From: a bacterium
Lineage (GTDB): Bacteria > ARS69
NCBI GenBank assembly: GCA_025774865.1
Contig: JALGZO010000458.1
Coordinates: forward strand, 1-30,331
Direction: 5' to 3'
DNA length: 30,331 bases
In this document: one piece after another, positions 306 through 22,676 of the stretch
How positions within the stretch are numbered: position 1 is the stretch's first letter
Layout: every line of letters starts with the position of its first letter
The notes under the pieces: model-generated
Told to the model about the DNA's origin: nothing
The model's input: only the letters and a program-made list of their open reading frames with translations
The model's database searches: none
Translations under genes and position numbers: made by a program

Positions 306-2138
306 ATGCCACCAGGCGGGGAGACCGAGCGCGGTGAGTCGCTCGGGGGAGACCAGCGCGGCAGGCTCGAAGGCCAACGGAAAGCGCGGAGCTGGGCCCC
401 ACTTCAGGGCGGGATCCTGTTCGCGCTCGCTTTGGTCGCGACCGGGCTGCAGCATCGGGCGAGCGTCCTCGATCAGACGAGGGATCTCGAGCAGCGAGGA
501 CGATCGCTCGCCGAGATGGTCGCGCACGCCATCGGTCCGAAAATCTCGGACGACTCGTCGTCGCGGGTGGCGCGGATCTTTCCCACCGCGATCCGCGACG
601 GGCATCTGATCGCGGGCGCAGTTCTCGATGCGGAGGACACGATCGTTGCCCACACGAACCCGGAGCGTGTGGGCGCGCCCGCGTCACCCGACCTCGACAC
701 CGCCCTTTTCGGAGAGGCGGACGGCCGGGTCTTTTCACACCCGGTCGTCGGCCCCGACGGGCGAAGCGGGACCGTGACCCTTCTCGTGCCCGGTTCTCCC
801 GCGGCCGCGAGTGCCGCGACGTGGCGGCTCCTGCTGACGCCCGGGTTGATACTCCTCGCGTGGCTCGCGACGAACCGGATCGCGGTCCGCCAATTACTCG
901 CCCCGACGAGGGACTCCCTCCGGCGGCTGACCCGAGCGCTGGACGGCGCCCCGGAAGAGGGCGAGCCCCCTCCGTCGGAGGTCGCCGAGTCGGCGTTGGC
1001 CATGGACGGGCTGGTCTCCCGGGTCGAGGCGCTCCGAGAATCGGAGCACGAGCTCACCGTGAGAAACCAGATCCTCAGCTACCGCAAGGAGAGGATGGAG
1101 CTGATCCTCCATCGATTCCCGGACGGGTTGATCGTCGCCGACCCCGCGAGGAACGTGATCTTCGCGAACCCCGCATCTGTCCGCGCCCTGGGAATGGCGG
1201 CCGCGGATCTGGTCGGCACGAACCTCCGAGAGTGCCCCCCGGCGCTCGGCCAGCTCATCGACGTGGCGGATCGCAGCGGGCGGGCCGTCGTGCCCGCCGA
1301 GCTGGCCGGCCCCGACCGACACCTGAGCTTGACGCGCGCTCCGCTGATGGCCTCGGGGAATCAGGCCGTCGGCACCCTCTACACGCTTCGGGACGTCACC
1401 GCGCAGCAGGCGTCACAACGGGCCCAGGCGGAATTCCTCTCGCAGGTCACCCACGAGCTCAAGGCCCCGCTGCACACGATCGTCGCGTACGTGGAGGAGC
1501 TCGCCGATGACGAGGGATTGACGCGCGAAGAGCGGCGAGACTACTCGAATACGCTCGACGCCGAGGTGAATCGCATGGCGCAGCTCATCTCCAATCTGCT
1601 CCAGCTCTCTCGCATCCAGCTCGGCAATCTCTCGGCGCAGCGAGGATTCGTGAAACCGTCGTCTCTCATCGCCGACCAGGCCGCTTCGCAGCGCGCGGCC
1701 GCCGAGGATCGGCAGCTCGAACTCGAGACGAGCATCCCGGAGAACCTGCCGGCTCTGTATGGAGACAAGGATCTCCTCGGCGTCGCCATCACCAATCTCC
1801 TCACGAACGCGATCAAGTACACCCGACCGGGAGGCCACGTCCGCGTTGCCGCCTCGGCCACGCCGGGCGGGGTGTCGGTCGAGATATCCGACACGGGAGT
1901 CGGAGTCCCGAAGGAAGAGCAAGCCCGCATTTTCGAGAGGTTCGCCCGGTCGGAGCAAGACTGGGTGCAGGAGCAATCCGGGTCGGGGCTGGGACTGTCG
2001 CTCGTCAAGGAGATCGTCGAGATTCACGAGGGGCAGATTTCCGTGGAAAGCGAAGTCGGCAAGGGAAGCTGCTTCCGAATCTCGTTGCCCTGCCGGGAAG
2101 CGGGCACACGCCCGGACGTCGTGGAATCTTTGACGTGA
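306..2138 (+). CDS. Membrane PAS sensor histidine kinase
   Basis: This 610-residue kinase opens the regulatory cassette. Two hydrophobic stretches (about residues 36-50 and 173-193) flank a roughly 120-residue presumably extracytoplasmic sensor region. A linker/HAMP-like stretch and coiled coil follow (about 195-260), then a PAS domain (about 263-365). The dimerisation helix carries the phospho-acceptor in HELKAPLH (His383). The ATPase domain shows the N box NLLTNAIKYT (497-506), DTGVG (529-533) and GSGLGLSL (559-566). The start is ATG 306 behind GGGGGAAA and downstream of a sigma-54-type promoter. The receiver gene begins 33 bases after the stop, so that protein is the likely phosphotransfer partner. 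The signal sensed is unknown. Confidence 0.9.
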   Translation: MPPGGETERGESLGGDQRGRLEGQRKARSWAPLQGGILFALALVATGLQHRASVLDQTRDLEQRGRSLAEMVAHAIGPKISDDSSSRVARIFPTAIRDGHLIAGAVLDAEDTIVAHTNPERVGAPASPDLDTALFGEADGRVFSHPVVGPDGRSGTVTLLVPGSPAAASAATWRLLLTPGLILLAWLATNRIAVRQLLAPTRDSLRRLTRALDGAPEEGEPPPSEVAESALAMDGLVSRVEALRESEHELTVRNQILSYRKERMELILHRFPDGLIVADPARNVIFANPASVRALGMAAADLVGTNLRECPPALGQLIDVADRSGRAVVPAELAGPDRHLSLTRAPLMASGNQAVGTLYTLRDVTAQQASQRAQAEFLSQVTHELKAPLHTIVAYVEELADDEGLTREERRDYSNTLDAEVNRMAQLISNLLQLSRIQLGNLSAQRGFVKPSSLIADQAASQRAAAEDRQLELETSIPENLPALYGDKDLLGVAITNLLTNAIKYTRPGGHVRVAASATPGGVSVEISDTGVGVPKEEQARIFERFARSEQDWVQEQSGSGLGLSLVKEIVEIHEGQISVESEVGKGSCFRISLPCREAGTRPDVVESLT

Positions 2139-2171
2139 TGCGATCGACGCGGTGGACCGAGGAGTAAGCCG

Positions 2172-2567
2172 ATGAGCACGAAGAGAGTACTGATCGTCGA
2201 CGACGATTCGAGCGTACGACGAGTGCTCGCTCGATCCTTCGAGCGCGCGGGATTCGAGGTGGGGACGGCGGGCGACGGAGAGGCCGCTCTCACCGAACTC
2301 GTCGGTGCGCACTTCGACGCGATGATCTGCGACATCCAGATGCCGAAGATGAGCGGCCCGATGCTTTGCCAGCACCTCGCCTCGACCGGACCCTACCTGC
2401 CCGGTTGCACGCTGATCGTGACTTCACACACCGGGGCCGAGGATCGCGACTGGGTGTCCTCCTTCCAGGGGGTCTCCGTCATCGAGAAGCCGGTCGGCCC
2501 GAAGCAGCTGCTCCGAGAGGTTCGGCAACGCCTGCAGGCGCAGACTTCGACGGGAGCGGATCGATGA
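2172..2567 (+). CDS. Single-domain response regulator (CheY-like)
   Basis: A 131-residue protein made of one receiver domain, with no output domain. All catalytic positions are present: acidic cluster Asp10-Asp11-Asp12, phospho-acceptor Asp54 in ICDIQMPKMSG, Thr84 and Lys106 (EKPVG). GAGGAG precedes the ATG. The stop overlaps the next start as ATGA (2564-2567). Lying between a histidine kinase and an HD-GYP protein, it probably passes phosphoryl signals within this cassette, acting by protein contact rather than DNA binding. The downstream target is not shown by the sequence. Confidence 0.9.
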   Translation: MSTKRVLIVDDDSSVRRVLARSFERAGFEVGTAGDGEAALTELVGAHFDAMICDIQMPKMSGPMLCQHLASTGPYLPGCTLIVTSHTGAEDRDWVSSFQGVSVIEKPVGPKQLLREVRQRLQAQTSTGADR

Positions 2568-3991
2568 CCACCGCCGCCGCGTTCGCGTCCTTCGTCCGCT
2601 CGTCTTGCGAGGGTCTGATTCGCAACCTCGCGGAGACCCTCGACACGCCGCTCGCCGTGCTCGATCACGCCGGCGAGGTCGTGCTCGGAGCCCCGGACGG
2701 ATGCGACATCGAAACCGCGCGCCCAGCGGACCGATCGATGGCGGCCCCGATCGAGGTCGGCGGTGACTCGCACGGCAGTCTCGTCGCGCTCCGCGAGGAA
2801 CCGACCCTTGCTCCGCTCCTCCAATCGCTGGCGCAGGACATCGGGACCCGGTTCGGATTGGAGCGTGATCTCAATCACCTCACCGACACGCTGTCGCACT
2901 CCTGCGACGAGATCAACCTGCTCTATCGCTTCGCTCGAATCCTCAGGAGCGACGAGGAGTTCGAGCCGAACGCCCACCGTCTGCTCGAGGAGACGGCTGA
3001 CCTGCTGGAGCATCGCCTCGTGGTTCTCGGAATGGCGAGCCAGGGTCGCTTCGCGTGGAAGGCGGGACCCGAGCTCGAGATGTCGAAGAGCCTCTCCTGG
3101 GTGGTCTCGAACCAGGCGATCCTCGAGAGCGTCCACGCCGAGGTCGGTCGCGAGCTGCGCGAGGAGGGAGTCGGGCAGCAGAGACGCGCCGGTTCGCTGC
3201 CCTCTCCCTTCGGCGTCGTCGAGTACATGCTGACCCCGGTTTCCGTGCGCTCGGAGGTGGCGGGGTACGCGGGACTGTTCAAGGCCGCGGACGACCCCCC
3301 GTTCGAAACGACGGAGCTCCGGTTCCTGGAGTGTCTCACGGCGGAACTCGGCAACGCCGCGACGGCCCGCGAGCTCCAGGACGAGCTCAGCGAGCTCCTG
3401 TTCAATGTCGTGCAGAGCCTCGTCGCCGCGATCGAGGCGAAGGACGAGTACACCCGCGGTCACTCGCAGCGGGTCTACCAACTGTCCCTTCGGATCGGGC
3501 AGCGAATGGGACTGCCTCCGCAGGAGCTCCAGACGCTGTCCTGGGCGGCGCTGCTGCACGACATCGGGAAGATCGCCATCGACGGTCAGGTGCTCAACAA
3601 GATCGCGAAGCTCACCGAGGAAGAGTTTCAGATGATCAAGTCGCATCCGGAACGCGGCTGCCGCGTGCTCGAGCCGATTCCGCAGCTCCGCGGCGTGCTT
3701 CCGGGGATTCGCCACCACCACGAGCGTTTCGATGGCAAGGGATACCCCGACAACCTGAAGGGAGAGGAAATCCCGATGCTGGCGCGCATCATTTCGGTCG
3801 CCGACAGCTACGACGCGATCGTATCCGCGCGCGCCTACCGTCCCGCTCGCACCAAGAACTTCGCATTGGACGAAGTCCGACAGGGCGCCGGAGCGCAGTT
3901 CGATCCCCAGGTTGCCCAGACGATGCTCGAGCTCGCCGTCGAAGGGTTCTTGCCCGAGATGGAGATCAACCGCAACGGAGATTCGGCGTGA
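2564..3991 (+). CDS. GAF-like plus HD-GYP domain protein, probable c-di-GMP phosphodiesterase
   Basis: The frame is open further upstream, but the ATG at 2564 overlapping the previous stop (ATGA) is the sensible start, giving 475 residues. Residues about 1-115 form an N-terminal sensor-like region and about 115-270 look GAF-like. The HD-GYP domain fills about 285-460. It shows GHSQRV, the HD pair in LLHDIGK (His332-Asp333), KSHPERG, HHHERFDGKGYP (GYP at 393-395) and ADSYDAI. The metal ligands and the GYP signature expected of active enzymes are all present. The family hydrolyses cyclic di-GMP. The gene is followed by a STAS protein and an assembly ATPase in one coupled run, so control of fibre assembly or secretion by c-di-GMP is a reasonable inference. 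Confidence 0.9.
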   Translation: MTTAAAFASFVRSSCEGLIRNLAETLDTPLAVLDHAGEVVLGAPDGCDIETARPADRSMAAPIEVGGDSHGSLVALREEPTLAPLLQSLAQDIGTRFGLERDLNHLTDTLSHSCDEINLLYRFARILRSDEEFEPNAHRLLEETADLLEHRLVVLGMASQGRFAWKAGPELEMSKSLSWVVSNQAILESVHAEVGRELREEGVGQQRRAGSLPSPFGVVEYMLTPVSVRSEVAGYAGLFKAADDPPFETTELRFLECLTAELGNAATARELQDELSELLFNVVQSLVAAIEAKDEYTRGHSQRVYQLSLRIGQRMGLPPQELQTLSWAALLHDIGKIAIDGQVLNKIAKLTEEEFQMIKSHPERGCRVLEPIPQLRGVLPGIRHHHERFDGKGYPDNLKGEEIPMLARIISVADSYDAIVSARAYRPARTKNFALDEVRQGAGAQFDPQVAQTMLELAVEGFLPEMEINRNGDSA

Positions 3992-4323
3992 ACATCAGAA
4001 CGACGAAGCTGGGCGTCGGCATCTACCTCCAACCCAACGGAGCTCTCGTCGAGGAGAGCCTCGGCGATCTGCGGCAGTCCGTCGGGGCGCTCAACGCCGG
4101 GCAACCTCTCCATCTCGTCCTCGATCTTCGTCAAGTTCCGTTCTTCGACAGCGCTGGGCTCGAGTACTTGCTGGATCTGTCGATCGAGCTGAGGGAAGCG
4201 GGCGGCTCGCTCCGTCTCGCCAACGCGAACTCGATCGGCCGCGATGTCCTGGCGATGACTCGCCTCGACCGGACGATCGCCGTCCATCAGGACTTGGAGA
4301 GCGCCGGCCGGAGCTTCGTGTGA
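3988..4323 (+). CDS. STAS-domain protein (anti-anti-sigma-factor type)
   Basis: A 111-residue single STAS domain. The start is GTG 3988, overlapping the HD-GYP stop as GTGA. The motif FFDSAGLEYLL carries Ser55, the residue phosphorylated in SpoIIAA-like antagonists, and strands such as LHLVLDLRQV fit the fold. In the known family such proteins swap between a serine kinase and a partner. No SpoIIAB-like kinase or anti-sigma gene is visible in the window. Its stop overlaps the start of the ATPase gene (GTGA, 4320-4323), so it may work within the signalling cassette upstream or on the assembly machine. The partner is unknown. Confidence 0.85.
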   Translation: MNIRTTKLGVGIYLQPNGALVEESLGDLRQSVGALNAGQPLHLVLDLRQVPFFDSAGLEYLLDLSIELREAGGSLRLANANSIGRDVLAMTRLDRTIAVHQDLESAGRSFV

Positions 4324-6029
4324 ACCCGACAGGGGTCGCCCGGAAAGCTCTGCTCGGCGACCTGCTCATCGAGAAGGGTCTGATCACCCCCGAGCAGCGG
4401 GACGAGGCGCTGGCCGCGAGCCGCGAGAGCGGACACCGCCTCGGCGAAGTACTCGTCGAGCGCGGTTTCCTGACGTCCGAAGACGTCAGCCGGGCACTCG
4501 CCGAACGAGGGGGTCTCCCCTATTTCCGTCTTCGGAAGGGCCTCGTCGATCCCCGGATCGTGAAGATCCTGCCGCGGGAGAAGGCCGAGCTCCACGAAGT
4601 TCTCCCGCTGTTCCGCGTGCACGACAAGCTCACGCTCGCCATCAGCGATCCGAACAAGATCTTCATCCTCGATGTCATCTACAAGCTCACGGGCTGCGAG
4701 ATTCAGCCGGTCGTCGCTCTCCGAGCCGACATCCTCCGGATGATCGACGAGGTCTATGTCGACGGCGAAGTACCGATGGAGGAGTTCATCTCCGACCTCG
4801 ACGATTCCGATCTCGAGCTCGTCTCGGTCGACACCTCCGCGGGGTTCGAGGACATCGCCCAGATGGCGGGCGACAGTCCGACGATCAGTCTCGTGAACCA
4901 CGTGATCCTGAAGGCGATGAAGGAGCGCGCGAGTGACATTCACATCGAGCCGGAGCGATCCTTCCTCCGTGTCCGCTTCCGCATCGACGGCATGCTCTAC
5001 GAAGTCATGCGCCACCGCATCGAGCTTCACGCCCCGGTGATCTCGCGGTTGAAACTGATGGCGAACGTCGACATCGCCGAGCGCCGCCTGCCTCAGGACG
5101 GCCGGATTCAGGTGCTCGCGCAGGGACGCACCGTGGATCTTCGCTTCTCCTCGCTGCCCGGAGTGATCGGCGAGAAGGTCGTCCTTCGCGTGCTCGACCG
5201 CGAGCGAGGCGTGCTTGGCCCGGAGGAGCTCGGCTTTCGCGCCGGGACGCTGGGCGCCTTTCGATCGCTCCTGCGGCGTCCGCATGGGCTCGTGTTGGTG
5301 ACCGGCCCCACCGGCAGCGGCAAGACCACGACCCTCTACGCCGGCCTGCGCGAGCTCAACTCGCTCGAGAAGAACATCGTGACGATCGAGGACCCGGTCG
5401 AATACCAGTTCGAGATCATCAATCAGAATCAGGTCAAGGACGAGATCGGGCTCACGTTCGCGAGGCTCCTGCGGCACACGTTGCGACAGGACCCGGACGT
5501 GCTGATGGTCGGCGAGATCCGCGACTCCGAGACGGCGCAGATCGCCGTCCAGGCGGCGCTCACCGGGCACCTCGTTCTGTCGACGATGCACACGAACGAC
5601 GCGGCCGGGTCGATCACCCGGCTCCTCGAGATCGGCATCGAACCGTACCTGCTCGCTCCGTCGCTCATCGGCGTCATCGCCCAGCGGCTGGTACGGACGA
5701 TTTGCCCCGACTGCGCGACCTCCTACCACGCGACCGAGACGGAGCGGAATGCGCTGGAAGCATCCGATCGGCCGACGCTCAAGCTGACGCGTGGTCGCGG
5801 CTGCGCGAGCTGCTTCGACTCCGGATATCGGGGCCGGCTCGGGATCTACGAGCTGCTCACGGTGGACCGTGAGCTCCGGGAGCTGCTGCTCGGCAACCCC
5901 ACGCTCGATGAGGTGCGCCAGCACCAGGAGCGGCACGAACACCCGACGTTGCGTCACGAGGCGATCCGCCGAGTGCTGGAAGGAAAGACGACGCTCGAGG
6001 AAATCTCGCGCGCCGTCATCATCGAATAG
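4320..6029 (+). CDS. gspE: GspE/PilB-family assembly ATPase
   Basis: A 569-residue hexameric-type secretion/pilus ATPase, cytoplasmic, which powers pseudopilin polymerisation. The GTG start at 4320 gives the usual GspE N-terminus beginning with a two-unit MshEN-like domain (LLGDLLIEKG, about 12-34; RLGEVLVERG, 40-62). The catalytic part has Walker A GPTGSGKT (329-336), the Asp box around IEDPVEYQ, Walker B ending in VGEIRD (Gly398-Glu399), and a His box. A four-cysteine zinc site CPDC (462-465) / CASC (495-498) marks the GspE/PilB extension type rather than PilT. GspF, pseudopilins, PilM-P-like proteins and a secretin are encoded just downstream. The MshEN repeats lack some c-di-GMP-contact residues (Arg in the first unit, the terminal Gln in both). 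Confidence 0.95.
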   Translation: MNPTGVARKALLGDLLIEKGLITPEQRDEALAASRESGHRLGEVLVERGFLTSEDVSRALAERGGLPYFRLRKGLVDPRIVKILPREKAELHEVLPLFRVHDKLTLAISDPNKIFILDVIYKLTGCEIQPVVALRADILRMIDEVYVDGEVPMEEFISDLDDSDLELVSVDTSAGFEDIAQMAGDSPTISLVNHVILKAMKERASDIHIEPERSFLRVRFRIDGMLYEVMRHRIELHAPVISRLKLMANVDIAERRLPQDGRIQVLAQGRTVDLRFSSLPGVIGEKVVLRVLDRERGVLGPEELGFRAGTLGAFRSLLRRPHGLVLVTGPTGSGKTTTLYAGLRELNSLEKNIVTIEDPVEYQFEIINQNQVKDEIGLTFARLLRHTLRQDPDVLMVGEIRDSETAQIAVQAALTGHLVLSTMHTNDAAGSITRLLEIGIEPYLLAPSLIGVIAQRLVRTICPDCATSYHATETERNALEASDRPTLKLTRGRGCASCFDSGYRGRLGIYELLTVDRELRELLLGNPTLDEVRQHQERHEHPTLRHEAIRRVLEGKTTLEEISRAVIIE

Positions 6030-6044: not shown

Positions 6045-6953
6045 TCATTGGATTCGCTTTCCCGTTCGCTGAAGCACGTTCCGCGGGTACACGAGCTCGG
6101 TGAACGTGATCGACTCGTCCGCGTCACTCGTGAGCGTCAGCGAGAGCGAAATGATCGGCCCGCGCGTCGACGAGGGCAGCACGTACGTCGCGGTGAACGC
6201 AGTGACGTGCGTGCACAGGTCCCCTCCGGCTGCGGTCTGCGGCACGACCTCACGAAGCACGCCGCGGCCCGCGTCGAGCTCGAACACCACGGGGTTGAGC
6301 CGGTCCTCCGTGAATTGCCCGTCCTCGTCGTCGTCGCTCGTCGTGCTCGTGACGATCTGCTCGTCGATCTGTCCGTCACCGTCGTCGTCCACGTTCGCGA
6401 GTCCCGCTTCGCCATCCTCGTTCATGTCGAAAGGGACGTCCTCGTCGATGTTGCCGTCGCCGTCATTGTCCCGTCCGTCCCACGGATCCTCGTTCCACAG
6501 CCCGTCCTCGTCGTCGTCGTCGGGGGCCCGGAGCGGATCCGCCGGCAACTCGTCCACCAGCCCGTCGCCATCGTCGTCGTACCCCTGGATGCCGGCATAG
6601 CCGTCGAGCGTCATGTCGTCCCCCAGGTCTTCGTCGATGCGGGGAAACGTGGTGTCGCCGAAGTAGGAGTCGACGTCGTCGTCGAGAGCGCCGGACACCG
6701 CCAGCGTTGTCCGACTCGGGGTGTGGGCATTCGGAAAGTGGACGATCGTCGCGCGGCGGACGCTCGTCGCCATCCGCCCCATCGCCGCGATGCCCTCCGA
6801 GTACAGGTCGGACTTGTCGTCTCCCACCGCCTGCGCCTCGAGGCTCGTCTGCACCAGGCCCGCGAGCGCGACGCACAGGAGGGCCAGAAGGCCGAGCGCC
6901 AGCGTCAATTCCACGAGCGTGAATCCCGGTGAACCGGGGCGGCGACGGCTCAC
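6045..6953 (-). CDS. GspJ-like pseudopilin with calcium-loop repeats
   Basis: A 302-residue last gene of an inverted minor-pilin operon. The class III prepilin signal is clear: after a basic leader, cleavage would fall at G|FTLVE with Glu at mature position 5, followed by a hydrophobic helix. Between about residues 118 and 220 there are six acidic loops of the type DxDxDG with a following Glu or Asp, for example DDDGDGLVDE, DNDGDGNIDED and DDDGDGQIDE. They resemble dockerin, thrombospondin-3 or EF-hand calcium loops. The C-terminal third looks like an ordinary pseudopilin domain. Position in the operon suggests GspJ, but the insertion is unusual. ATGA overlap (6950-6953) couples it to the gene upstream. 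It converges on gspE with a 15-base gap. Confidence 0.82.
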   Translation of the reverse strand: MSRRRPGSPGFTLVELTLALGLLALLCVALAGLVQTSLEAQAVGDDKSDLYSEGIAAMGRMATSVRRATIVHFPNAHTPSRTTLAVSGALDDDVDSYFGDTTFPRIDEDLGDDMTLDGYAGIQGYDDDGDGLVDELPADPLRAPDDDDEDGLWNEDPWDGRDNDGDGNIDEDVPFDMNEDGEAGLANVDDDGDGQIDEQIVTSTTSDDDEDGQFTEDRLNPVVFELDAGRGVLREVVPQTAAGGDLCTHVTAFTATYVLPSSTRGPIISLSLTLTSDADESITFTELVYPRNVLQRTGKRIQ

Positions 6954-7363
6954 AGCTTGCCCACCCAGCCGCCGTGATCGACCACGACGGTTTCGAGCGA
7001 TCGATCACGCAGCGTGATGACGACATGCTTCGCTGCGACCTCCGGCAGGGCGTCGCCGTCCAGGTCGAGCGGCGTCACGGTCCAGACGACCTGGTAGGCG
7101 GTCCCTCCCACGTTCACGTTGGCCTGACCGCTCGCCACCGCGGAGAACCGCTCGGCGAGCAAGAGTTCCAGGAAGCTTCGCAGGTGGCCATCGACCTGAG
7201 CCTCCGTCGCGTGGGCGTCGAGAGCGCGCAGCCCCGTGTAGTAGGCCTCCGAGATCGCGACAACCGAGAATCCGAGGATCACGATCGAGAGCAGTACCTC
7301 GACCAGAGTCGTTCCGCGGGACGCCGTGCGGGCCCCGGCGCGAGGGCGGGCTCGGCTACTCAA
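6950..7363 (-). CDS. GspI/PilV-like minor pseudopilin
   Basis: A 137-residue prepilin-like protein. A basic leader ends at SRG|TTLVEVLL, where Gly is the cleavage residue and Glu sits at mature position 5. The helix VLLSIVILGFSVVAISEAYY follows. The remaining about 95 residues form a small globular domain rich in valine. Length and N-terminus match GspI or PilV. The start overlaps the end of the GspH-like gene by eight bases, and the stop overlaps the GspJ-like gene (ATGA). In type II systems such proteins build the tip complex of the pseudopilus, which is the likely role here. Confidence 0.8.
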   Translation of the reverse strand: MSSRARPRAGARTASRGTTLVEVLLSIVILGFSVVAISEAYYTGLRALDAHATEAQVDGHLRSFLELLLAERFSAVASGQANVNVGGTAYQVVWTVTPLDLDGDALPEVAAKHVVITLRDRSLETVVVDHGGWVGKL

Positions 7364-7940
7364 CGACCACTTCGATCGCGCTCACCTCCGTGCGCGTCAC
7401 CCGGCCGGTGACGACATCGACGGTGAGCAGGACGCCGACCTCCCCGAGCCCCAGCCGGACCGAGCCGCCCTCCGACGGCCGGCCTCGATCGTCGAACGTG
7501 ATCCCGTCGTCCGGGCCGAAATCCACGGCGGTTACGTCGACACCCCGGAAGCGGGCGTCCTTGCCGAAGTTCACTTGATAGCCGTGGCCGCGCTTGAGGG
7601 GATGCTGGACGACGGCGTACTGGATCGCTTCGACCTTGCTCGCGGCGATCTCGCTCACGAGGTCGTCCTTCAGTCCGACCAGGTCGGCGCTGTCGGGCGA
7701 CGCCTGTTCGACGACGAAGGTGTCGGCCGCCAGATCGAAGGTCACCCGGCACGGTCGCCCCTGACTCGCGGCCGACATCCGCGCGAACCGGAGCGCCGTC
7801 ACGGTCTCCCCCGCGGCGGCCGAGAGAGCCGCCTCTTGCAGGGACGAGCTCAAGAGCGGCCGGCTGATCGCCGCCACGACCGCGACCACGAGGAGGACGA
7901 GCACGATCTCGACGACGGAGTAGCCGCGAATGTCTCTCAA
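7356..7940 (-). CDS. GspH/FimT-like minor pseudopilin
   Basis: The frame is open far upstream, but that part is a shadow of the neighbouring gene. The TTG at 7940, which overlaps the upstream stop as TTGA, gives a 194-residue protein with a standard prepilin N-terminus. The short leader ends at DIRG|YSVVEIVLVLL, with Glu at mature position 5. ALSAAAGETVTALRFARMSA is the typical GspH/FimT helix end, followed by a beta-rich domain. The same kind of 4-base overlap occurs at most junctions in this window, which supports the non-ATG start. Likely a minor subunit of the pseudopilus tip. Confidence 0.78.
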   Translation of the reverse strand: MRDIRGYSVVEIVLVLLVVAVVAAISRPLLSSSLQEAALSAAAGETVTALRFARMSAASQGRPCRVTFDLAADTFVVEQASPDSADLVGLKDDLVSEIAASKVEAIQYAVVQHPLKRGHGYQVNFGKDARFRGVDVTAVDFGPDDGITFDDRGRPSEGGSVRLGLGEVGVLLTVDVVTGRVTRTEVSAIEVVVE

Positions 7941-9553
7941 ATCGCGGCCCCCGCGATCGCGAACGGGAGCTGGAGGGTCGACAGACTCGCCGAGAGCAGC
8001 TGTGCCGGATCCGCGACGAACTTGTCTCCGATCCACAGGCAGTAACGCAGCTCGGAGGAACTGTTGCCCGCGAGCACGATCACGTTCTCGGTGCCGTCTA
8101 CGGCGAACATCCTCGTGGCCCGGATCGTATCCCCGAAGTCGGGGCCCGTTTGCACGGTACGACTCGCGAGCGTCGTGCTCGTCATCCACCGTACGAAGCG
8201 CAACGTGTTCGCTCCCTGTCGGGCCCACGAGATGATCAGTTCGCCGCCAGAGCTCTCCCACGCCAGGTCGAAGTTCACGTAGGTGGGTCCGCCGCCGGGC
8301 TGAAGCGTGGTCGTCTCCAGCTCGGCGGAATCGACCCAGGCCGTCCCGTCCCACGCCGCCACGTTGAGGTCTCGGCTCGCGTCCACTGCGGCCACCACGA
8401 CGTGGTCGCTCGTCGGATCGGTGACGGCGCGCACGAGGTGGGCTTCGGCTCCGAAGGTGGGCAACATTCCGACGGGGCTCAGGACGGTCCCGTCCCAGGT
8501 GGAGTAGCGGCACTGATCCTGCTTGTCCTTCCCCCACACGACCATCGCCTCGGCGGACTCCTGCTCGTAGACGACGTCGGCGACGAAGGGGGATCCGGTG
8601 GTAGCCGCGGCTTCCAGCTCCGGAAAGAGGCTGAAGGCGCTTCCGTTCCAGCGAAGAAGCCGCACGACCTGGTTCACGTGGACCACCAGCAGGAGAATCT
8701 CGTCGGCCTTGGGGTTCGAAGCCATTCGAACGAAAGAAACGTCGTCGGGCTCCCCGGTGCTGACCGTCCCCGGCACCGACCAGGCGCTGCCGCTCCAAAC
8801 CGAGTAGCTCAGCTGGCCCGCCACGCTGTTGAAAGCCGCGACGAGTGCGTCGCCCGACACGCTCTCGTACGCGACATCGACGGCTTTGTAGTCCTTGCTC
8901 GAGCTCGCGAACAAGACCTCGCTTCCCCAGCTCGCACCGTTCCAGACCGCGAGCCGGACTTCGTTGTTGCCGTTGACCGTCGCCATCAGAATCTCGTCAT
9001 CGAACGGGCTTCCGGCGAGCTCGGCCCAGCTCACGACCTGGCTACCGACATCGACGCTGGCCCCCGCAGCGCTCCACGAGGCTCCGACGAGTCGGCGGTA
9101 AGGCGGAAACTGAGTCGCCGATTGGCCGTACGCCGTCATGATCCGTGAGATCACGTACTGTCCCCAGCTCTGGCGGACGACGCTCTCGCCGACCACTCCG
9201 ACCGTCGCGATCGTGGCGAACGTCGTTGGCGTGGGCGCCCGCACCTTGTAGCCGTACCGCCCGGCCCCCAGCGAATGCATGGAATAGACCGTTTCGTTCG
9301 GGGGGAATCCCGGCTCGTGAAAGAGCCGCCACATCGCGTGGTTCACGCCCGCCTCCGCCAGGTACGCCGCCTGGGCGTCTTCCGTACGGTTCGATCCGGC
9401 CGACACTTGCGTCCCGGTCTGCGTGACGAACGTGAGCGCGGACGCGGAGAGGATGCTGACGAGAATCAGCACGGCGACATACGACGAGCCAGCCTGCCGG
9501 GGCGAGACGGCGACCGATCCAAGCCGCGGGGGAATGGGAGGCAATCGATTCAT
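7937..9553 (-). CDS. PilX/GspK-like minor pilin with predicted beta-propeller domain
   Basis: A 538-residue first gene of the inverted minor-pilin operon. The N-terminal helix (about 22-45) follows a Gly that could be a prepilin cleavage site, but Glu5 is missing, as in GspK. AAYLAEAGVNHAMW is the PilX/GspK-type signature. From about residue 150 to the end there are seven units of about 50 residues, each ending in a strand with a W-x-G-type turn (VWNGASW, VWSGSAW, RWNGSAF, TWDGTVL, AWDGTAW, then RWMTSTT and LWIGDKF). Seven regular units suggest a seven-bladed beta-propeller displayed on the fibre. The ribosome site GGGGAT precedes the ATG. The propeller is inferred from repeat spacing only. 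Confidence 0.78.
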   Translation of the reverse strand: MNRLPPIPPRLGSVAVSPRQAGSSYVAVLILVSILSASALTFVTQTGTQVSAGSNRTEDAQAAYLAEAGVNHAMWRLFHEPGFPPNETVYSMHSLGAGRYGYKVRAPTPTTFATIATVGVVGESVVRQSWGQYVISRIMTAYGQSATQFPPYRRLVGASWSAAGASVDVGSQVVSWAELAGSPFDDEILMATVNGNNEVRLAVWNGASWGSEVLFASSSKDYKAVDVAYESVSGDALVAAFNSVAGQLSYSVWSGSAWSVPGTVSTGEPDDVSFVRMASNPKADEILLLVVHVNQVVRLLRWNGSAFSLFPELEAAATTGSPFVADVVYEQESAEAMVVWGKDKQDQCRYSTWDGTVLSPVGMLPTFGAEAHLVRAVTDPTSDHVVVAAVDASRDLNVAAWDGTAWVDSAELETTTLQPGGGPTYVNFDLAWESSGGELIISWARQGANTLRFVRWMTSTTLASRTVQTGPDFGDTIRATRMFAVDGTENVIVLAGNSSSELRYCLWIGDKFVADPAQLLSASLSTLQLPFAIAGAAI

Positions 9554-9650: not shown

Positions 9651-10823
9651 ATGGCCATCGATCTCACCAAAGTCGAAGCCGCCAGCCGCGCGAAGCCCGG
9701 TGTCGCGCCGCCGCCGAAACGGCACGCCCGGCCGCGGATCCCTCGCGACCCGCGCCGCCTGGCGACTTATCGCTTCATGACCTCGAAGAAGGTCCCCCTC
9801 GACGACGTCGTCCTCTTCACCCAGCAGCTGGCCCTGCTCCTGCAAACCGGCAACGGCCTCGTCCCTTCGATCGGGGCACTCGCGACCCAGACGGGGTCGC
9901 CAGCGCTCCGGGACGTGCTCCAGGACGTACAGACACGCCTGGAGGAGGGGAACGAGCTTTCGGATTCCCTGGGCCAGCATCCGGCCGCCTTCGACCACCT
10001 GTACGTGAGCCTCGTGAAGGCCGGCGAGGCGACCGGCCATCTCCGGGAGAGCTTGGAGCGCCTCGTCGGGATCCTGGAGATCCGCCGCCGGCTCAGGGCA
10101 CGCATTCGCGAGGCGATGACCTACCCGACGCTCCTGGCGGTCGTCATGACGGGGGTCGTGGTCTTCGTATTCACGTTCATGATCCCACGCTTCGCCGAGC
10201 TCTTCGCGTCCCTGGGCGACGAGCTACCCCTCTCCACCCGGCTCCTGGTGGGCATCAGCGACGCTTTGCGCTCAAGGTGGTGGTTCTTCGTTCCGATGGT
10301 GATCCTGACAGGAGTAGGTGTGGGCCGGCTCGGACGGACGGAGTTCGTTCGGCGAGCCTGGGATCGGACGAAGATGCGCCTGCCCGTCGTAGGTAAGCTC
10401 TACGGCGAGGCTTATCTGTTTCAGCTCTCGTCGACCTTGGGCCTTCTGCTGGGGAGTCGCGTTCCCCACCTGGAGGCGATCCAGATCGCGAAAGACGTCG
10501 TGAAGAGCCCCGGTTACGAGCGTCTATTTGCGGATCTCGAGAAGTACGTGGAGGCGGGACGCGGGGTCGCGCCGGCCTTTCAAGAGGCACCGTTCCTTCC
10601 CGATACCGTCAAGCTGATGGTCTCAACGGGGGAGGCTTCGGGAGCGCTCGACATCGTGATGGGAAGGCTCGCGGAGCACTACCGGGAGGAGTTGGAGAGC
10701 GACATCCGGCGTCTGAGCTCGTTGCTCGAGCCGGCCATGCTAGTCGGCATGGGGTTGATGGTCGGGTTCATCGCGATCTCGCTCATCGTGCCGATTCTCA
10801 GAATGTCTCGGGCAATTCACTGA
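9651..10823 (+). CDS. gspF: GspF/PilC-family inner-membrane platform protein
   Basis: A 390-residue platform protein of the type II secretion / type IV pilus family, which binds the assembly ATPase and the PilM-O complex. The two repeated T2SSF domains are visible: the first (about 55-180) with VVLFTQQLALLLQTGNGLVPSI, the second (about 255-380) with LFQLSSTLGLLLGSRVPHLEAI. Three membrane segments lie near residues 158-185 (TLLAVVMTGVVVFVFTFMIP), 205-230 and 362-385 (AMLVGMGLMVGFIAISLIVP). The N-terminus is basic and cytoplasmic. The start has a strong ribosome site and a sigma-54-like promoter upstream. The major pseudopilin gene follows after 13 bases. Confidence 0.94.
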   Translation: MAIDLTKVEAASRAKPGVAPPPKRHARPRIPRDPRRLATYRFMTSKKVPLDDVVLFTQQLALLLQTGNGLVPSIGALATQTGSPALRDVLQDVQTRLEEGNELSDSLGQHPAAFDHLYVSLVKAGEATGHLRESLERLVGILEIRRRLRARIREAMTYPTLLAVVMTGVVVFVFTFMIPRFAELFASLGDELPLSTRLLVGISDALRSRWWFFVPMVILTGVGVGRLGRTEFVRRAWDRTKMRLPVVGKLYGEAYLFQLSSTLGLLLGSRVPHLEAIQIAKDVVKSPGYERLFADLEKYVEAGRGVAPAFQEAPFLPDTVKLMVSTGEASGALDIVMGRLAEHYREELESDIRRLSSLLEPAMLVGMGLMVGFIAISLIVPILRMSRAIH

Positions 10824-10836: not shown

Positions 10837-11352
10837 ATGACGCGCGGGTTATTCAATCGGTCAGGTTTCACGCTTGTGGAAGTCCTGATCGTGGTCGTCA
10901 TTCTCAGCGTGCTGGCCGCGATCGCCATTCCACAGTTCACCTCCAGTACGGAGGATGCGAAGCTCGCGGCGCTCGACGTCGATCTCGCCGAGCTCCGGAA
11001 TGCCATCGAGTTGTACTACCACCAGCACAACTCCGTGTACCCGGGAGCGATCAACCACACGACGGGGGCGGCGGCAGCCAGCGCCGCAGAAGCCCAAGCG
11101 GCGTTCACCGCGCAGCTCACGCTTTACACGAGCTCCGCGGGCATCACGGCCAACGTGAAGGACGCGACTTACAAGTACGGTCCGTACATGAAGAAGGTCC
11201 CGGAGAATCCGTACAACGAGCTCGCCAGCATCCTCGCCGACATCACGGAGACCGACATCACGATTGCGGCTTCGAGCGGCGTCGCCGGCTGGAAGTTCTA
11301 CACCAACACGGGACGTTTGGTCGCGAACGACGGGGCCCACGACTCGAACTGA
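10837..11352 (+). CDS. Major type IV pilin / GspG-like pseudopilin
   Basis: A 171-residue prepilin. The leader ends at RSG|FTLVEVLIVVVILSVLAA, with cleavage after Gly, Phe at mature position 1 and Glu at 5. The following helix and IAIPQFTSSTEDAKLAALDVDLAELRNAIELYYHQH is the standard GspG/PilA stem. The middle (about 70-110) holds an alanine-rich stretch. KKVPENPYNE resembles the conserved GspG loop, and the tail is WKFYTNTGRLVANDG. AAGGAG sits before the ATG. Being directly behind gspF and having this canonical stem, it is the most likely main fibre subunit. A 117-base gap separates it from the next gene. Confidence 0.92.
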   Translation: MTRGLFNRSGFTLVEVLIVVVILSVLAAIAIPQFTSSTEDAKLAALDVDLAELRNAIELYYHQHNSVYPGAINHTTGAAAASAAEAQAAFTAQLTLYTSSAGITANVKDATYKYGPYMKKVPENPYNELASILADITETDITIAASSGVAGWKFYTNTGRLVANDGAHDSN

Positions 11353-11469
11353 CGCCGGGTACGCCGCCTTCTCGCGGCCCCCGACGTGCTCCCGGCCCGA
11401 CGAGGGCGGAGGCGCCGGCCCGCACGATCAGGAAGCAACCGCCTGCGACCCCGCCCTCTGGAGGCCGAC

Positions 11470-12549
11470 GTGACGACCTCGACCGCGGCTGCCCGAATGG
11501 GCGATCTCTGGCGCCGATCGACGCTCCCGCGCAGCGTCATCGGCGTTGAGGTCGGTGAGACATGGCTCTGCGTCGCCCGCCGACGCCGCGGCCCCGATCC
11601 TTGGTCTCTGGCTACCCTCCCGATAGAGCCGGAAGACCTCGACGCGGCCCGTCCGCTTCCTCGCCGGTTGCGGGAGCTCGCGCGATCGGCGAAGCTGCCC
11701 CGCGGCGAGGCGATCTGCGCCCTGTGCTCTCCGGCCGTCACCATCTTTCCTCTGACACTGCCGGTGGCGCGATCCGAACGCCTCGACTATCTGGTCGCTA
11801 CTCAGGCGGAGAAGCACCTCAGCCGGCCCCTCGACGAAGTGGTTCTCGACTACGCGGCCGTGCCCGAGGCGATCCGGCGTCCCGGCGAGAGCACGACCGT
11901 CGTCCTCGTCTTCGCCGTCCCCCGCACCGTCGTCGACGGCGTGCTGGCGGGATTGGCGCAGCTCGGCCTCCGCGTGGACCGACTGATCACGCCGGCCTGC
12001 GCGTTGGCCCGCCACTTCAGGTCCCGGGCCGGGGATCGCCGCCTCCTGATCGACACCTCTCAGAACGCCACGTCGATCTCGGTCGTGCAGGACGGTCACG
12101 TGCTGCTCGAGCGGATCCTCCCGTGGGGACGACAATCCCTGCTCGCGCGACTGGAGACCGAGCTCTCTCTCGAGACCGAGCACGCCCGCACCCTCCTCGA
12201 ACGCGGGCATGATGACGCGGAGGAATCGTCGGGCTCCCCCGGCACGGACTCCCCGGCGGGTGCGCTCCGCGAGATTCTCGCTCCGGTCTTTCGCAGTCTG
12301 ACCGGCGAAGCCGCCAGTTGTCTGGCTTACGGCGGCTCCGTGTTCCGTCACGCTCCCGCCGGCGGAGCGATTCTCGTCGGGGCGCTGGCGAACCACGAGC
12401 CGTTGCGCGAGGCGTTGAAACGTGAGCTCGGACTCGGTGTCCAGGGGGCCGCCGATGCGTTCGGCTTCGCGGACCGCGAGAACTCGGACGTGGCTCGCTA
12501 CGCCACCGCGATCGGCTGCGCCCTCTGGGCGCAGGGGCGCGCAGCATGA
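11470..12549 (+). CDS. pilM: PilM-like cytoplasmic assembly protein (actin-like ATPase fold)
   Basis: The GTG at 11470, behind GGAGG with a short spacer, gives 359 residues. An in-frame ATG at 11497 lacks a ribosome site. The protein starts with SVIGVEVGETWLCVARRR, the first phosphate-binding strand of the PilM/FtsA fold, and later has RLLIDTSQNATSISVVQDGH, the second such loop, and an AYGGSVF segment. In type IV pili PilM binds the N-terminus of PilN beneath the inner membrane; in type II systems the GspL cytoplasmic domain plays this part. The gene order PilM-N-O-P-secretin supports the assignment. The stop overlaps pilN (ATGA). Confidence 0.85.
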   Translation: MTTSTAAARMGDLWRRSTLPRSVIGVEVGETWLCVARRRRGPDPWSLATLPIEPEDLDAARPLPRRLRELARSAKLPRGEAICALCSPAVTIFPLTLPVARSERLDYLVATQAEKHLSRPLDEVVLDYAAVPEAIRRPGESTTVVLVFAVPRTVVDGVLAGLAQLGLRVDRLITPACALARHFRSRAGDRRLLIDTSQNATSISVVQDGHVLLERILPWGRQSLLARLETELSLETEHARTLLERGHDDAEESSGSPGTDSPAGALREILAPVFRSLTGEAASCLAYGGSVFRHAPAGGAILVGALANHEPLREALKRELGLGVQGAADAFGFADRENSDVARYATAIGCALWAQGRAA

Positions 12550-13232
12550 CGTCGATCGACCTCATCCCTCCGGACACGATCGCTCGGCGCGACTCACGAC
12601 GACGGCTCCGGCGGTGGGGCTTCCGGCTCGGATTCGGGACGGTCCTGGCGACGACTCTTCACGTCGCGCTCGTGGAGCTCGCCACGGGCCAGCACGCGGA
12701 GCTCTCGCAGCTGACACAACGGTACACGCGGCTCCAAGAGGAGTTGGAGCGAGCCGATGGATTGCTCGAGAAACGCGAAGAACTGGGGCGCCGTCGCGAG
12801 GCCATTTCGCTCATTCGGGGCACCCAGACGGCCGGGCACTATCTCGAGCTTCTCGAATCGACGCTGACTCCCGAGAGTTACCTCACGACCCTCGTCCTGG
12901 AGCGCTGCCCGCCGTTCGAACGAGACGAGCGGGATCCCACTCGACAGGAAGCGTGCCGGGCTCGCCTTCGAATCAGCGGACTCGCGGCCGAGCACGCTCA
13001 CGTCGGCCGCATCCTTCGAGGAATGATCGCCCGGGACGAGTTCGTCAAAGTGGGACTCGTCTCGGTCAACGAACTCCCCCCCGAGCCCGAATCCCGCAAG
13101 AAATCCCGCAAGAAGTCCCGCACCAAGCCGAAGCCCCCGGGGGTGGCGTTCGAGATCTTGTGCGTTCTAGCCGAAGAAGAGACCGGGATGAACGCCGTGA
13201 CCGACGGCCCGCGGAAGGAGGGGATGAGATGA
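12546..13232 (+). CDS. pilN: PilN-like inner-membrane assembly protein
   Basis: A 228-residue bitopic protein. It begins MTSIDLIPPD, close to the conserved INLLP-type PilN N-terminus that binds PilM. A basic stretch, one membrane segment (about 27-48) and a coiled coil (about 50-80, TQRYTRLQEELERADGLLEK) follow. A ferredoxin-like periplasmic domain comes next (about 90-195). Near residues 183-195 there is a small tandem of Lys/Arg/Ser (RKKSRKKSR), coded by a short DNA repeat at about 13090-13125; this is not usual for PilN. ATGA overlaps join it to both neighbours. It would form the PilN-PilO heterodimer. Confidence 0.82.
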   Translation: MTSIDLIPPDTIARRDSRRRLRRWGFRLGFGTVLATTLHVALVELATGQHAELSQLTQRYTRLQEELERADGLLEKREELGRRREAISLIRGTQTAGHYLELLESTLTPESYLTTLVLERCPPFERDERDPTRQEACRARLRISGLAAEHAHVGRILRGMIARDEFVKVGLVSVNELPPEPESRKKSRKKSRTKPKPPGVAFEILCVLAEEETGMNAVTDGPRKEGMR

Positions 13233-13768
13233 TCGATCCCCCGAGGGTGGATCGCGTCGGACGGATTGCGGCCGCCACGCTCGTCGTCGGGTTCTCGGCC
13301 CTGGTGACGTTCCAGGCGATCCGCCCCCTCGTGGGCGCTCGCCGGGATCTCGGCGCGTTCCGCGAAGCGATCGTGATCCTGTCGGACGCCGAGGTGTCGG
13401 TCGATCGTCTGGACTCGGAGATTCAGCTCGCGACCGAGGACCTTCGTCGGAGTCAGTCTCTCCTACCGGCCGAGCTGAACCTGGATTCCTTCCTGGAGCA
13501 AGTCGGTGAGATCGCCAAGGACACCGGCACCCGGATCGAGACCCTCACGCCGGTCGGCTCGGCGGAGCACTATCTGTTTCGGGAGATGATGCTCGAGGTT
13601 CGCGTGAGGGGATCGTTCCCGGAGATTCGCGAGTTCCTCGACCAGCTGGAGCATGGCACCCAGCTCTCTCGTGTCGAGCAGTTGCAGGTGGCCAAGAGCA
13701 AGGGAGACGAGGATTGCTCCGCGAGTCTGCGCGTGGCGCTCTACTTCGCCCCCGGTTCGAAGGGATGA
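13229..13768 (+). CDS. pilO: PilO-like inner-membrane assembly protein
   Basis: The start is ATG 13229 behind AAGGAGGGG, with an ATGA overlap to pilN; 179 residues. One membrane segment (about 12-32, AAATLVVGFSALVTFQAIRP) is followed by a coiled coil (about 40-75). A compact periplasmic domain ends in strand-turn patterns typical of PilO (SLLPAELNLDSFLEQVGEIAKDTGTRIETL split over the coil end, then VRVRGSFPEIREFLDQLE). PilO pairs with PilN to form the alignment complex linking the cytoplasmic ATPase to the secretin. The assignment rests mainly on architecture and gene order. Confidence 0.83.
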   Translation: MIDPPRVDRVGRIAAATLVVGFSALVTFQAIRPLVGARRDLGAFREAIVILSDAEVSVDRLDSEIQLATEDLRRSQSLLPAELNLDSFLEQVGEIAKDTGTRIETLTPVGSAEHYLFREMMLEVRVRGSFPEIREFLDQLEHGTQLSRVEQLQVAKSKGDEDCSASLRVALYFAPGSKG

Positions 13769-13772
13769 TGCG

Positions 13773-14276
13773 ATGGCCGACGCGCTGATCGACCGAGGCT
13801 CCGACCGGCGGGTGACCTTCGTGTGGGGAACCGGGGTGGTGATTGCCGTCGGCGCCGTCATCGCTCTCGCGCTCTGGATCGATGACCGCAAAGTCGAGGA
13901 TCCGGCGGGTGACGCCGAGGCCGCCTACCGCGAGCTCATGCTCGAGATCGAGACGCGGGCCGCCGACCCCGTCGTGACCGCTCCCGACACGCTCGCCCCG
14001 GATCCCGTCGAGCCCGAATCCCGCCGCGACCTGTTCTCGCCGGCGGCCCCACGTCCGGACGTGGCCTCGGCGATGCCGCGGGTCAAGCGGCCTCGAATCC
14101 CGGCGCTCTCGGGAATTCTCATCGACGGGTCGGCTCGGCAGGCGGTTCTCGACGGTGAGGTCTTCGCGGTGGGTGAGCAGATCCGAGGCTTCCAGGTTCT
14201 CGAGATCGATTCAGACGCGGTCGTTCTCGGTCGCGCAGGCTCAACGCACCGCCTCGCGGTCGGCGGGGACCGATGA
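13773..14276 (+). CDS. GspC/PilP-like secretin-linking protein
   Basis: A 167-residue protein with one N-terminal membrane anchor (about 15-38, VTFVWGTGVVIAVGAVIALA) and a flexible Pro/Asp-rich linker (about 55-100). The C-terminal domain LSGILIDGSARQAVLDGEVFAVGEQIRGFQVLEIDSDAVVL (about 114-155) is the homology-region/PilP beta domain that contacts the secretin N0/N1 domains. True PilP is a lipoprotein; here the anchor looks uncleaved, which is closer to GspC. ATG 13773 follows the pilO stop by four bases. The stop overlaps the secretin start (ATGA, 14273-14276). Confidence 0.8.
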   Translation: MADALIDRGSDRRVTFVWGTGVVIAVGAVIALALWIDDRKVEDPAGDAEAAYRELMLEIETRAADPVVTAPDTLAPDPVEPESRRDLFSPAAPRPDVASAMPRVKRPRIPALSGILIDGSARQAVLDGEVFAVGEQIRGFQVLEIDSDAVVLGRAGSTHRLAVGGDR

Positions 14277-15550
14277 CGCGGCACTGGCTGCTTTCGGGGG
14301 TCGTCAGCGCCATCGTCGCGCTCGTCATCGCCGCCTCGATCGGGGCCGACGCGCCACCGGAAGCGGTCGATCCAGACACTCCCGCTCCCGTCACTCTCTC
14401 CACTCACGACACGGACATCCGCGAGGTCCTTGCGCTCTTTTCGCGTTCCCGGGGTCTCAACATCGTCACGAGCGGCGAGGTCGAAGGACGGATCTCGGTC
14501 GATCTGCACGAGGTCCCGTTCCACGACGCGCTGCGCGCGGTCGTCGGCATGGCCGGCTTCGAGGTGATCCGGCGCGGCGACATCTATTTCATCGGGAATC
14601 CTCCCGGCCACGATCCCGGAGCGTCGCTTCTTCGCGATACGCGCACGTTCCGACTCAGCTACGCGCTCCCCGAGGACATCACTCCCGTCTTCGAAAAGAT
14701 GAAGTCGCCGATCGGGCGCATCACGGCCTATCTTCCCCTACGCACCATCGTCGTGGAGGACCTGCCCGACGTCCTCGAGCGCATGGAGCGGGTGCTCTCC
14801 GACTTGGACCACGCGCCACGTCAGGTGCTCATCGAGGCGCGCATGATCGAGGTCTCGCTCAGAGACGACCTCGCGTTCGGGATCGATTGGTCGGCCGTTT
14901 TCTCGAGCGGCAGCGGCCAGGGTGACGCCAACCAGTCCGGCTTCGCGTCACCGCCCACGGCGACGAACCAAGGCCTGTTCATCTCCTGGGCGGACGTCGA
15001 CTTCACCGCCGAGCTGGAAGCACTCGAAGAGGTCGAGGATCTGAAGACGCTTTCCTCCCCACGAGTTCTCGCGGTCGACGGCGTTCCGGCCGAGGTCATC
15101 GTCGGCAGCCAGCTCGGCTTCCGGGTCACGACAACGGTCGAGAACGTGGTGATGGAGTCCGTCCAGTTCCTCGACACCGGGGCGCAGCTCCGGCTGACGC
15201 CGACGATCACCGGAGACGACCACGTCCTCATGACGGTCCACCCCGAGCTCTCCGACGGGAAGATCGAGCTGGGGCTGCCCTCCAAGACGACCGCCCAGGT
15301 CACGACGGACGCTCTGGTCCGGAACGGTCAGACGCTGTTCATCGGGGGTCTCATCCGCGAGCGCGAGGAGGAGACGCAACGGGGTGTCCCGATTCTGATG
15401 CGGATCCCGCTGCTCGGGCGGCTCTTCGGACGCACGGTCCAGAAGACGTTCCGGAGCGAGATCGTCACCCTGATCACGCCGCATATCGTGGAGCCGGGAA
15501 AGGCCCCGAGTCTCGAGCATCTGCCGGAGATGCAGTCGAGCATCGAGTGA
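14273..15550 (+). CDS. Secretin, GspD/PilQ family (short form)
   Basis: A 425-residue outer-membrane channel subunit. A signal peptide covers about 1-25 (WLLSGVVSAIVALVIAASIG). An STN/N-type domain follows (about 40-110, VTLSTHDTDIREVLALFSRS, then GLNIV) and a second small N domain (about 120-190). The secretin core runs from about 190 to 415 with RQVLIEARMIEVS, a Ser/Gly-rich gate loop, LKTLSSPRVLAVDGVPAEVIVG, TLFIGGLIREREEE, and the signature VPILMRIPLLGRLFG then EIVTLITPHIVE. Most GspD and PilQ proteins are 600-750 residues, so this one has few N domains. It is the last gene of the plus-strand operon and converges on the hydrolase gene. Confidence 0.92.
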   Translation: MTRHWLLSGVVSAIVALVIAASIGADAPPEAVDPDTPAPVTLSTHDTDIREVLALFSRSRGLNIVTSGEVEGRISVDLHEVPFHDALRAVVGMAGFEVIRRGDIYFIGNPPGHDPGASLLRDTRTFRLSYALPEDITPVFEKMKSPIGRITAYLPLRTIVVEDLPDVLERMERVLSDLDHAPRQVLIEARMIEVSLRDDLAFGIDWSAVFSSGSGQGDANQSGFASPPTATNQGLFISWADVDFTAELEALEEVEDLKTLSSPRVLAVDGVPAEVIVGSQLGFRVTTTVENVVMESVQFLDTGAQLRLTPTITGDDHVLMTVHPELSDGKIELGLPSKTTAQVTTDALVRNGQTLFIGGLIREREEETQRGVPILMRIPLLGRLFGRTVQKTFRSEIVTLITPHIVEPGKAPSLEHLPEMQSSIE

Positions 15551-17600: not shown

Positions 17601-17682
17601 TCTCTTCCTCCTGGAGGGCCGCTCACTGCCGCCCAAGGTCCGGCTGCCAAAAGTCCGAACTCTTGCCCTAGATAACCCCTAC

Positions 17683-18660: not shown

Positions 18661-19331
18661 CGGGCCCACCGTCGGCGCGCCGGGCACCAGATTCGAAACA
18701 GGATCACGCCGACGATGAAGCCCCCGAGATGCTCGAACCACGCGATCCCGCCCGATGCGACCGACCCGAACTCACTGAAACCACCGACGACTTGAGTGAG
18801 GAGCCAGAGCCCGATCACGAGCCCGGCCGGAACGCGTATCAAGCGGATGAAGAACACGATGAACACGAGCGACAATACGCGCGCCCCCGGGAATCCGATG
18901 AGGTAGGCCCCCAGAACGCCCGCAATCGCGCCGCTCGCACCGATCGTCGGGATTTCCGAGCTCGCGTTCGTCACGAGGTGGGCGAGATGGCCGCCGAGAC
19001 CCGCCAAGACGTAGAACACGAGAAACTTGGCGTGTCCGAGCACGTCTTCGATGTTGTTCCCGAAGATCCACAGGTAGAGCAGGTTGCCGCCCAGGTGAAC
19101 GAGACCACCGTGGAGGAACATCGACGTCAACAACGTCGTGAACGGGAAGGGTGCGACCGCCTCGACCCCGAGGAACCGAGCCGGGATGAGCCCCCGCTCG
19201 AAGACGAGGCGATCGGCGGGCACCCCTCCAAAGAGCTGGAACAGATAGGCGGCGGCGTTCGCGACGACGAGCAGGATCGTGATCCACGGCGTGCGGACAG
19301 CGGGGTTGTCATCCTTCAGAGGGAGAAACAA
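18657..19331 (-). CDS. Rhomboid-family intramembrane serine protease
   Basis: A 224-residue polytopic protein. The TTG at 19331 behind GGGGAG gives the common rhomboid N-terminus (F-L-P-L-K-D-D-N-P, then six to seven membrane helices). Catalytic features are intact: HLGGN (Asn83, oxyanion side), GASG with nucleophile Ser133, and EHLGG with His201. It cleaves membrane proteins inside the bilayer; the substrate is unknown. The stop overlaps the lipoprotein gene's start. A terminator-like hairpin ends 16 bases upstream of the start codon. Confidence 0.93.
   Translation of the reverse strand: MFLPLKDDNPAVRTPWITILLVVANAAAYLFQLFGGVPADRLVFERGLIPARFLGVEAVAPFPFTTLLTSMFLHGGLVHLGGNLLYLWIFGNNIEDVLGHAKFLVFYVLAGLGGHLAHLVTNASSEIPTIGASGAIAGVLGAYLIGFPGARVLSLVFIVFFIRLIRVPAGLVIGLWLLTQVVGGFSEFGSVASGGIAWFEHLGGFIVGVILFRIWCPARRRWAR

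Positions 19332-21276: not shown

Positions 21277-22676
<1,400 letters not shown>

Follow-up and report, generated by a model that had tools for sequence, protein, structure and literature searches.

The 30,331-base window examined here is one entire contig (JALGZO010000458.1) of an incomplete 4.7 Mb bacterial genome (GCA_025774865.1), and near its start lies a row of five plus-strand genes encoding a sensor histidine kinase (HK), a stand-alone receiver (REC), an HD-GYP phosphodiesterase, a STAS-domain-only protein and a GspE/PilB-type assembly ATPase (Table 1). The same order recurs in eight further loci spanning several separate lineages, Candidatus Eisenbacteria, Schekmanbacteria and Nitrospirae among them, and on that account it stands well beyond chance. 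Across this and related arrangements, the STAS gene and the motor ATPase form a constant core while the cyclic di-GMP (c-di-GMP) enzyme is exchangeable. We regard it as an even call whether the five genes make up a single module that controls the assembly ATPase in a machine resembling a type II secretion system (T2SS) or type IV pilus (T4P), in which the STAS protein would act as a dedicated adaptor or gate and the HK, REC and HD-GYP proteins as its input.

All five open reading frames lie consecutively at the places and on the strand first proposed for them, and their Pfam domains agree: HisKA, HATPase_c and PAS_4 in the HK, Response_reg in REC, HD_5 with a weak GAF in the HD-GYP protein, STAS in the fourth gene, and MshEN with T2SSE in the ATPase. 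A gap of 33 bases separates HK from REC. The last four genes are linked by 4-base stop/start overlaps, as the original prediction had it, with ATGA between REC and HD-GYP and GTGA at both the HD-GYP/STAS and STAS/GspE junctions. Its description of the genes as translationally fused was overstated, these being stop/start overlaps of separate genes. Such overlaps join nine of the 14 co-directional neighbour pairs called on the contig, so that taken alone they offer little proof of a module. In the HK, hydrophobic segments at residues ~30-50 and ~175-195 enclose some 125 residues that are sCache-like and probably periplasmic.

Gene order in related genomes was the check that the original prediction had itself proposed, and it held up. 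The HD-GYP protein, searched against 386 genomes, led to three with the exact order (G362, G323, G268), while the top six matches of a STAS-profile survey were STAS-GspE pairs, after which the score dropped. A DNA pattern consisting of the STAS C-terminus plus TGA, validated beforehand on known loci, was run over 84,980 named species genomes and found 29 stretches. Of these, 17 carry the operon, from Eisenbacteria, Schekmanbacteria, Nitrospirae, Phycisphaerales and unclassified metagenome-assembled genomes (MAGs); GspE lies downstream of STAS in 16, and the remaining one is at a contig end. Since the pattern requires an R base before TGA, it favours possible ATGA/GTGA overlaps and overlap counts from its loci are biased. 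Among the loci found independently of it, G362, G323, G268, G275, G365 and G391 have a 4-base overlap between the STAS and ATPase genes, and G386 does not. Collectively, the complete row is found in the window and in G362, G323, G268, GWA2_38_11, HOT.CON.50, SZUA-224, RS_17_35 and CSMAG_775, the last two being the Candidatus Eisenbacteria MAGs that are nearest to the window by ATPase (68% and 66% identity, respectively).

A shorter HK-STAS-GspE row without REC and HD-GYP occurs in RS_13_32, two Nitrospirae MAGs and one Phycisphaeraceae MAG, and throughout the T2SS-type clade REC and HD-GYP are either both present (11 loci) or both absent (five). In four Phycisphaerales loci (L149, L150, L154, L160), a membrane protein with GAF and degenerate GGDEF regions is encoded between HD-GYP or HK and STAS. 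This GGDEF-like gene was rejected as an active cyclase since its motif reads FDDSRF, not GGDEF. A STAS search of plasmids gave one unrelated Streptomyces match.

The ATPases that accompany STAS have a single origin, with 19 of them forming one clade (100/100) against 34 others in the tree. When an ATPase profile was used to survey 386 genomes, the six best matches (860-1093 bits) were all STAS-linked, four of them having been in the profile and two not, and the next score was 725 bits. Among 24 lower-scoring loci that were inspected (665-725 bits), STAS was upstream in one, G276, whose PilB is the sister of the STAS-linked clade (99/92) on a long branch that makes the placement less sure than the support value. 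The gene order in G276 is secretin-TPR-HK-REC-GAF/GGDEF-STAS-PilB-PilT-PilC, with an intact YGGEEF motif. In the phylum of G276, which is probably Planctomycetota and was sampled by 343 genomes, all 20 STAS matches below 1e-12 immediately precede PilB/GspE, and the gene before STAS encodes a GGDEF protein (seven), REC (eight) or HD-GYP (five). It is STAS that accompanies the ATPase invariably, and not HD-GYP, which gives way to a GGDEF protein in some relatives and is lacking in others.

These patterns bear on the notion of an operon of convenience, whose genes would be co-expressed but serve separate targets, the HD-GYP protein setting global c-di-GMP and the kinase addressing other regulators. 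The abundance of 4-base overlaps on the contig fits this notion, as do the differing signalling genes of relatives; however, several phyla share the order, and the STAS-ATPase pair stays together as all the genes upstream of it change. We consider the notion improbable.

Some arrangements lie outside this clade. At L103 (G010) and L104 (G033), HD-GYP is directly upstream of GspE with no STAS; their ATPases belong to other, separate branches, and these neighbours were therefore rejected as the same module and read as independent pairings. Related ATPases at L188 (G202), L192 (G298), L180 (G241) and L181 (G369) stand behind HK-REC or three receiver-like genes, likewise with no STAS, and two-component genes often lie next to ATPases of this group. 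At L115 (G126) and L131 (G263), genes of another STAS subgroup closely precede GspE genes of a distant branch with no gene overlap, which is possibly a second, independent STAS-ATPase pairing.

The signalling cassette that the original prediction saw coupled to a GspE-type ATPase also stands at the level of residues, since the catalytic positions of HK, REC and HD-GYP are intact. The phosphorylatable His is present in every complete HK of the family, and Asp54 of REC in 12 of 12 sequences. The metal and GYP residues of HD-GYP are nearly intact across all 13 compared, with one N for D390 and two Q for H386 as exceptions. In the window, H300, H332/D333, H361, H385/H386, D414 and GYP are all present, and the protein is predicted to be a catalytically complete phosphodiesterase. 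Among solved structures, the closest chain belongs to a 3'3'-cGAMP enzyme (5z7c), which, by homology only, leaves c-di-GMP or cGAMP as the substrate.

Turning to the STAS protein, Ser55 is conserved in 21 of 21 sequences and matches the phosphorylation site of partner-switch STAS proteins (PMC8256260). Its C-terminal R108-S109-F110 tail is invariant as well. The fold carries this Ser in a DSxGL loop, as in SpoIIAA/RsbV antagonists, and the nearest solved structures are the anti-sigma antagonists TM1442/SpoIIAA; the scores fall below the family cut-offs, narrowly for TIGR00377 ant_ant_sig (49.3 vs 53.45 bits) and widely for TIGR02886 (27.8 vs 114.75). Such likenesses favour classical partner switching, whereby the dephosphorylated STAS protein would bind an RsbW-type kinase and alter transcription, its adjacency to the ATPase reflecting co-expression only. 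Consistent with this, RsbW-type genes with STAS neighbours are located on other contigs of the genome. Yet at none of the loci examined did the operon show an RsbW-type kinase gene, the HK there being a HisKA kinase, and one ATPase clade retains the same STAS across phyla, a link that a diffusible anti-anti-sigma factor does not need. An RpoD/RpoS-like sigma-70 gene that adjoins the cluster in the window was dropped as a STAS partner, as it is on the operon contig in none of 11 relatives searched, several of which have short contigs. On balance, partner switching of this kind is unlikely to explain the pairing.

A more direct route would have the HD-GYP enzyme lower c-di-GMP and the ATPase read that level through its own MshEN domain, leaving STAS peripheral. 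The ATPase has a T2SSE core (1.5e-133) with an N-terminal MshEN region (6.3e-17) and passes the NCBIfam c-di-GMP_motif model NF053729 (65 bits, cut-off 38). Together with the intact HD-GYP, this speaks for direct read-out, as does the good preservation of one half-site in most relatives, namely Gln61 in the T2SS-type clade and Arg9 with Gln32 in the pilus type. Against it, the window ATPase departs from the two RLGxx...LxxxLxxQ motifs, with their conserved Arg, Leu and Gln, that mark c-di-GMP-responsive ATPases of the MshE type: it has L, R, S and R at the positions of R9, L25, Q32 and Q61, the worst of 40 compared sequences, of which none has both motifs perfect; in the Eisenbacteria sister ATPases only motif I is lost. 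MshE loses 83% of its c-di-GMP binding through R9A and 61% through Q32A (PMC4624772), and it is the two Gln whose side chains make the polar contacts with the ligand (PMC5013675). As the key arginine is gone along with the two glutamines that contact the nucleotide, the direct route appears weak for this ATPase, and the c-di-GMP read-out by an MshE-type N-domain in the original prediction did not survive the comparison. Since the NF053729 model is passed, some weak binding may persist. The idea that intactness of MshEN tracks the presence of a c-di-GMP enzyme was rejected, there being no such pattern across the 40 sequences. Overall, we hold out little prospect for direct read-out as the explanation of the row.

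Our preferred reading remains that of STAS as a dedicated adaptor or gate of the motor, for which the pairs PilZ-PilB and PdeK-PdeR are the closest analogy. An envelope signal sensed by the kinase would lead to phosphorylation of the stand-alone receiver, which may then act on the HD-GYP enzyme, on STAS or on both, shifting the local c-di-GMP level as well as the complex's state. STAS would be made together with the ATPase through stop/start coupling and would most likely dock on the N-terminal region of the ATPase to switch or localise the motor, as PilZ does on PilB. The contact between STAS and the ATPase, the action of the receiver and the direction of control are what we infer in this scheme. 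Several points weigh against it. The module is absent from the four other genomes of the same family, the only family by which the host GTDB phylum was sampled (five genomes with that of the window); these have no full-length HD-GYP, STAS or >50% GspE match and carry generic paralogues only. Coupling is not universal, as STAS is 94-172 bases from the ATPase start in L154, L160 and G386. Genes may share an operon simply because they are expressed together, and STAS could target the RsbW-type kinases encoded elsewhere in the genome. A broader version, to which we lend somewhat less than even credence, would make these STAS proteins a class of regulator not yet described, acting directly on the assembly ATPases of type IV filaments as a partner-switch-like gate in T2SS-like and T4P machines of several phyla. 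Their swappable input slot would be filled by HD-GYP, a diguanylate cyclase, a degenerate GGDEF protein or two-component proteins alone.

RpfC/RpfG of Xanthomonas form one relay of HK, receiver and HD-GYP phosphodiesterase. In the window, by contrast, REC and HD-GYP are separate genes, the HK is not hybrid, and the operon runs on into STAS and GspE. PilZ is a protein of ~120 residues that binds the N-domain of PilB, does not itself bind c-di-GMP, and has the PdeK-PdeR kinase/phosphodiesterase pair upstream of it (PMC11656802). The Xanthomonas PilZ-FimX-PilB system thus shares with the row an HK, a receiver, a c-di-GMP phosphodiesterase and a small ATPase partner, which here is predicted only. 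It differs in that STAS takes the place of PilZ, HD-GYP is separate from REC, and all lie in one coupled operon; there is no PilZ, EAL or FimX gene among the five. MshE and PA14_29490 (PMC4624772, PMC5013675) are likewise GspE/PilB-type ATPases with an N-terminal MshEN and a link to c-di-GMP, whereas the window ATPase lacks both Gln and Arg9 and is coupled to a STAS gene. SpoIIAA/RsbV, SypA and BtrV (PMC8256260) share the STAS fold and its phosphorylatable Ser in the DSxGL loop, and BtrV is tied to a secretion system through control of type III secretion. Here the operon has no RsbW-type kinase, and the partner that stays constant is the ATPase of a secretion/pilus machine.

That pilus and secretion motors can be under the control of two-component systems and c-di-GMP is already known, while STAS as a standing partner of the motor looks to be undescribed. 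No description of a STAS-PilB/GspE pair, or of STAS with a pseudopilin or HD-GYP, was found in the open-licence literature, which is weak evidence of absence, and the word STAS does not occur in a 2024 PilB review (PMC11656802). What prompts pilus and secretion motors to run is still an open question, and few proteins are known to partner PilB (PilZ, FimX). A STAS-motor pair that spans phyla while its upstream enzyme is swapped between making and breaking c-di-GMP therefore amounts to a natural experiment. The genetically tractable species Planctopirus limnophila is probably one of the carriers (G714), making the idea directly testable.

The remaining genes of the machine follow the row (Table 1). 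The gene set is of the T2SS type, comprising GspF, GspG-K pseudopilins, L/M/C-like genes and a secretin, and no PilT gene was found in the cluster. Canonical assignment fails in both directions: the ATPase scores 582 bits against a GspE cut-off of 630 (TIGR02533) and 554 against a PilB cut-off of 676, the secretin scores 199 as PilQ and 187 as GspD, and GspE, GspF, GspG and the secretin all stay under the thresholds of the curated models for canonical T2SS or T4P components. The machine is thus T2SS/T4P-like, the two types not being separated by these scores. In G323 (L106), all machine genes run collinearly behind gspE and the signalling genes in a single run, and on that basis the minus-strand pseudopilin block of the window (6045-9553) looks like a local inversion.

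Table 1. Features of the window, with positions counted from its first base.
Feature	Position	Strand	Remarks
Sensor histidine kinase (HK)	306-2138	+	610 aa; PAS; HisKA (His383); HATPase_c
Stand-alone receiver (REC)	2172-2567	+	131 aa; Asp10/11, Asp54, Lys106 present
HD-GYP phosphodiesterase	2564-3991	+	475 aa; GAF-like N-terminal region; complete HDIGK and HHERFDGKGYP motifs
STAS-domain-only protein	3988-4323	+	111 aa; GTG start; conserved DSAGLE loop with Ser55; C-terminal A-x-R-S-F
GspE/PilB-type assembly ATPase	4320-6029	+	569 aa; GTG start; N-terminal MshEN region; Walker A GPTGSGKT
GspJ/PilW-like minor pseudopilin	6045-6953	-	D-x-D-G-D-rich insert; machine gene in inverted block
GspI/PilV-like minor pseudopilin	6950-7363	-	
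GspH-like minor pseudopilin	7356-7940	-	TTG start at 7940 proposed
GspK/PilX-like pseudopilin	7937-9553	-	long repetitive C-terminal part
GspF/PilC-type platform protein	9651-10823	+	
GspG-like major pseudopilin	10837-11352	+	
PilM/GspL-like protein	11386-12549	+	start uncertain
PilN-like protein	12546-13232	+	basis includes position
PilO/GspM-like protein	13229-13768	+	
PilP/GspB-C-like protein	13773-14276	+	
Secretin (PilQ/GspD type)	14273-15550	+	
RpoD/RpoS-like sigma-70 factor	16749-17636	-	regions 1.2, 2, 3, 4; TTG start; adjoins cluster
Rhomboid protease	18657-19331	-	
NtrC/NtrB-type two-component pair	21277-24014	-	GTGA overlap; named from translations only
GroEL	24163-25788	-	named from translation only
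MoeA	28575-29897	-	

Two of the pseudopilins have unusual extensions. The insert of the GspJ-like protein is long and resembles calcium-binding repeats, with homologues in related clusters. The C-terminal part of the GspK/PilX-like protein consists of 450 residues of W-containing repeats with no Pfam match and is possibly a beta-propeller tip.

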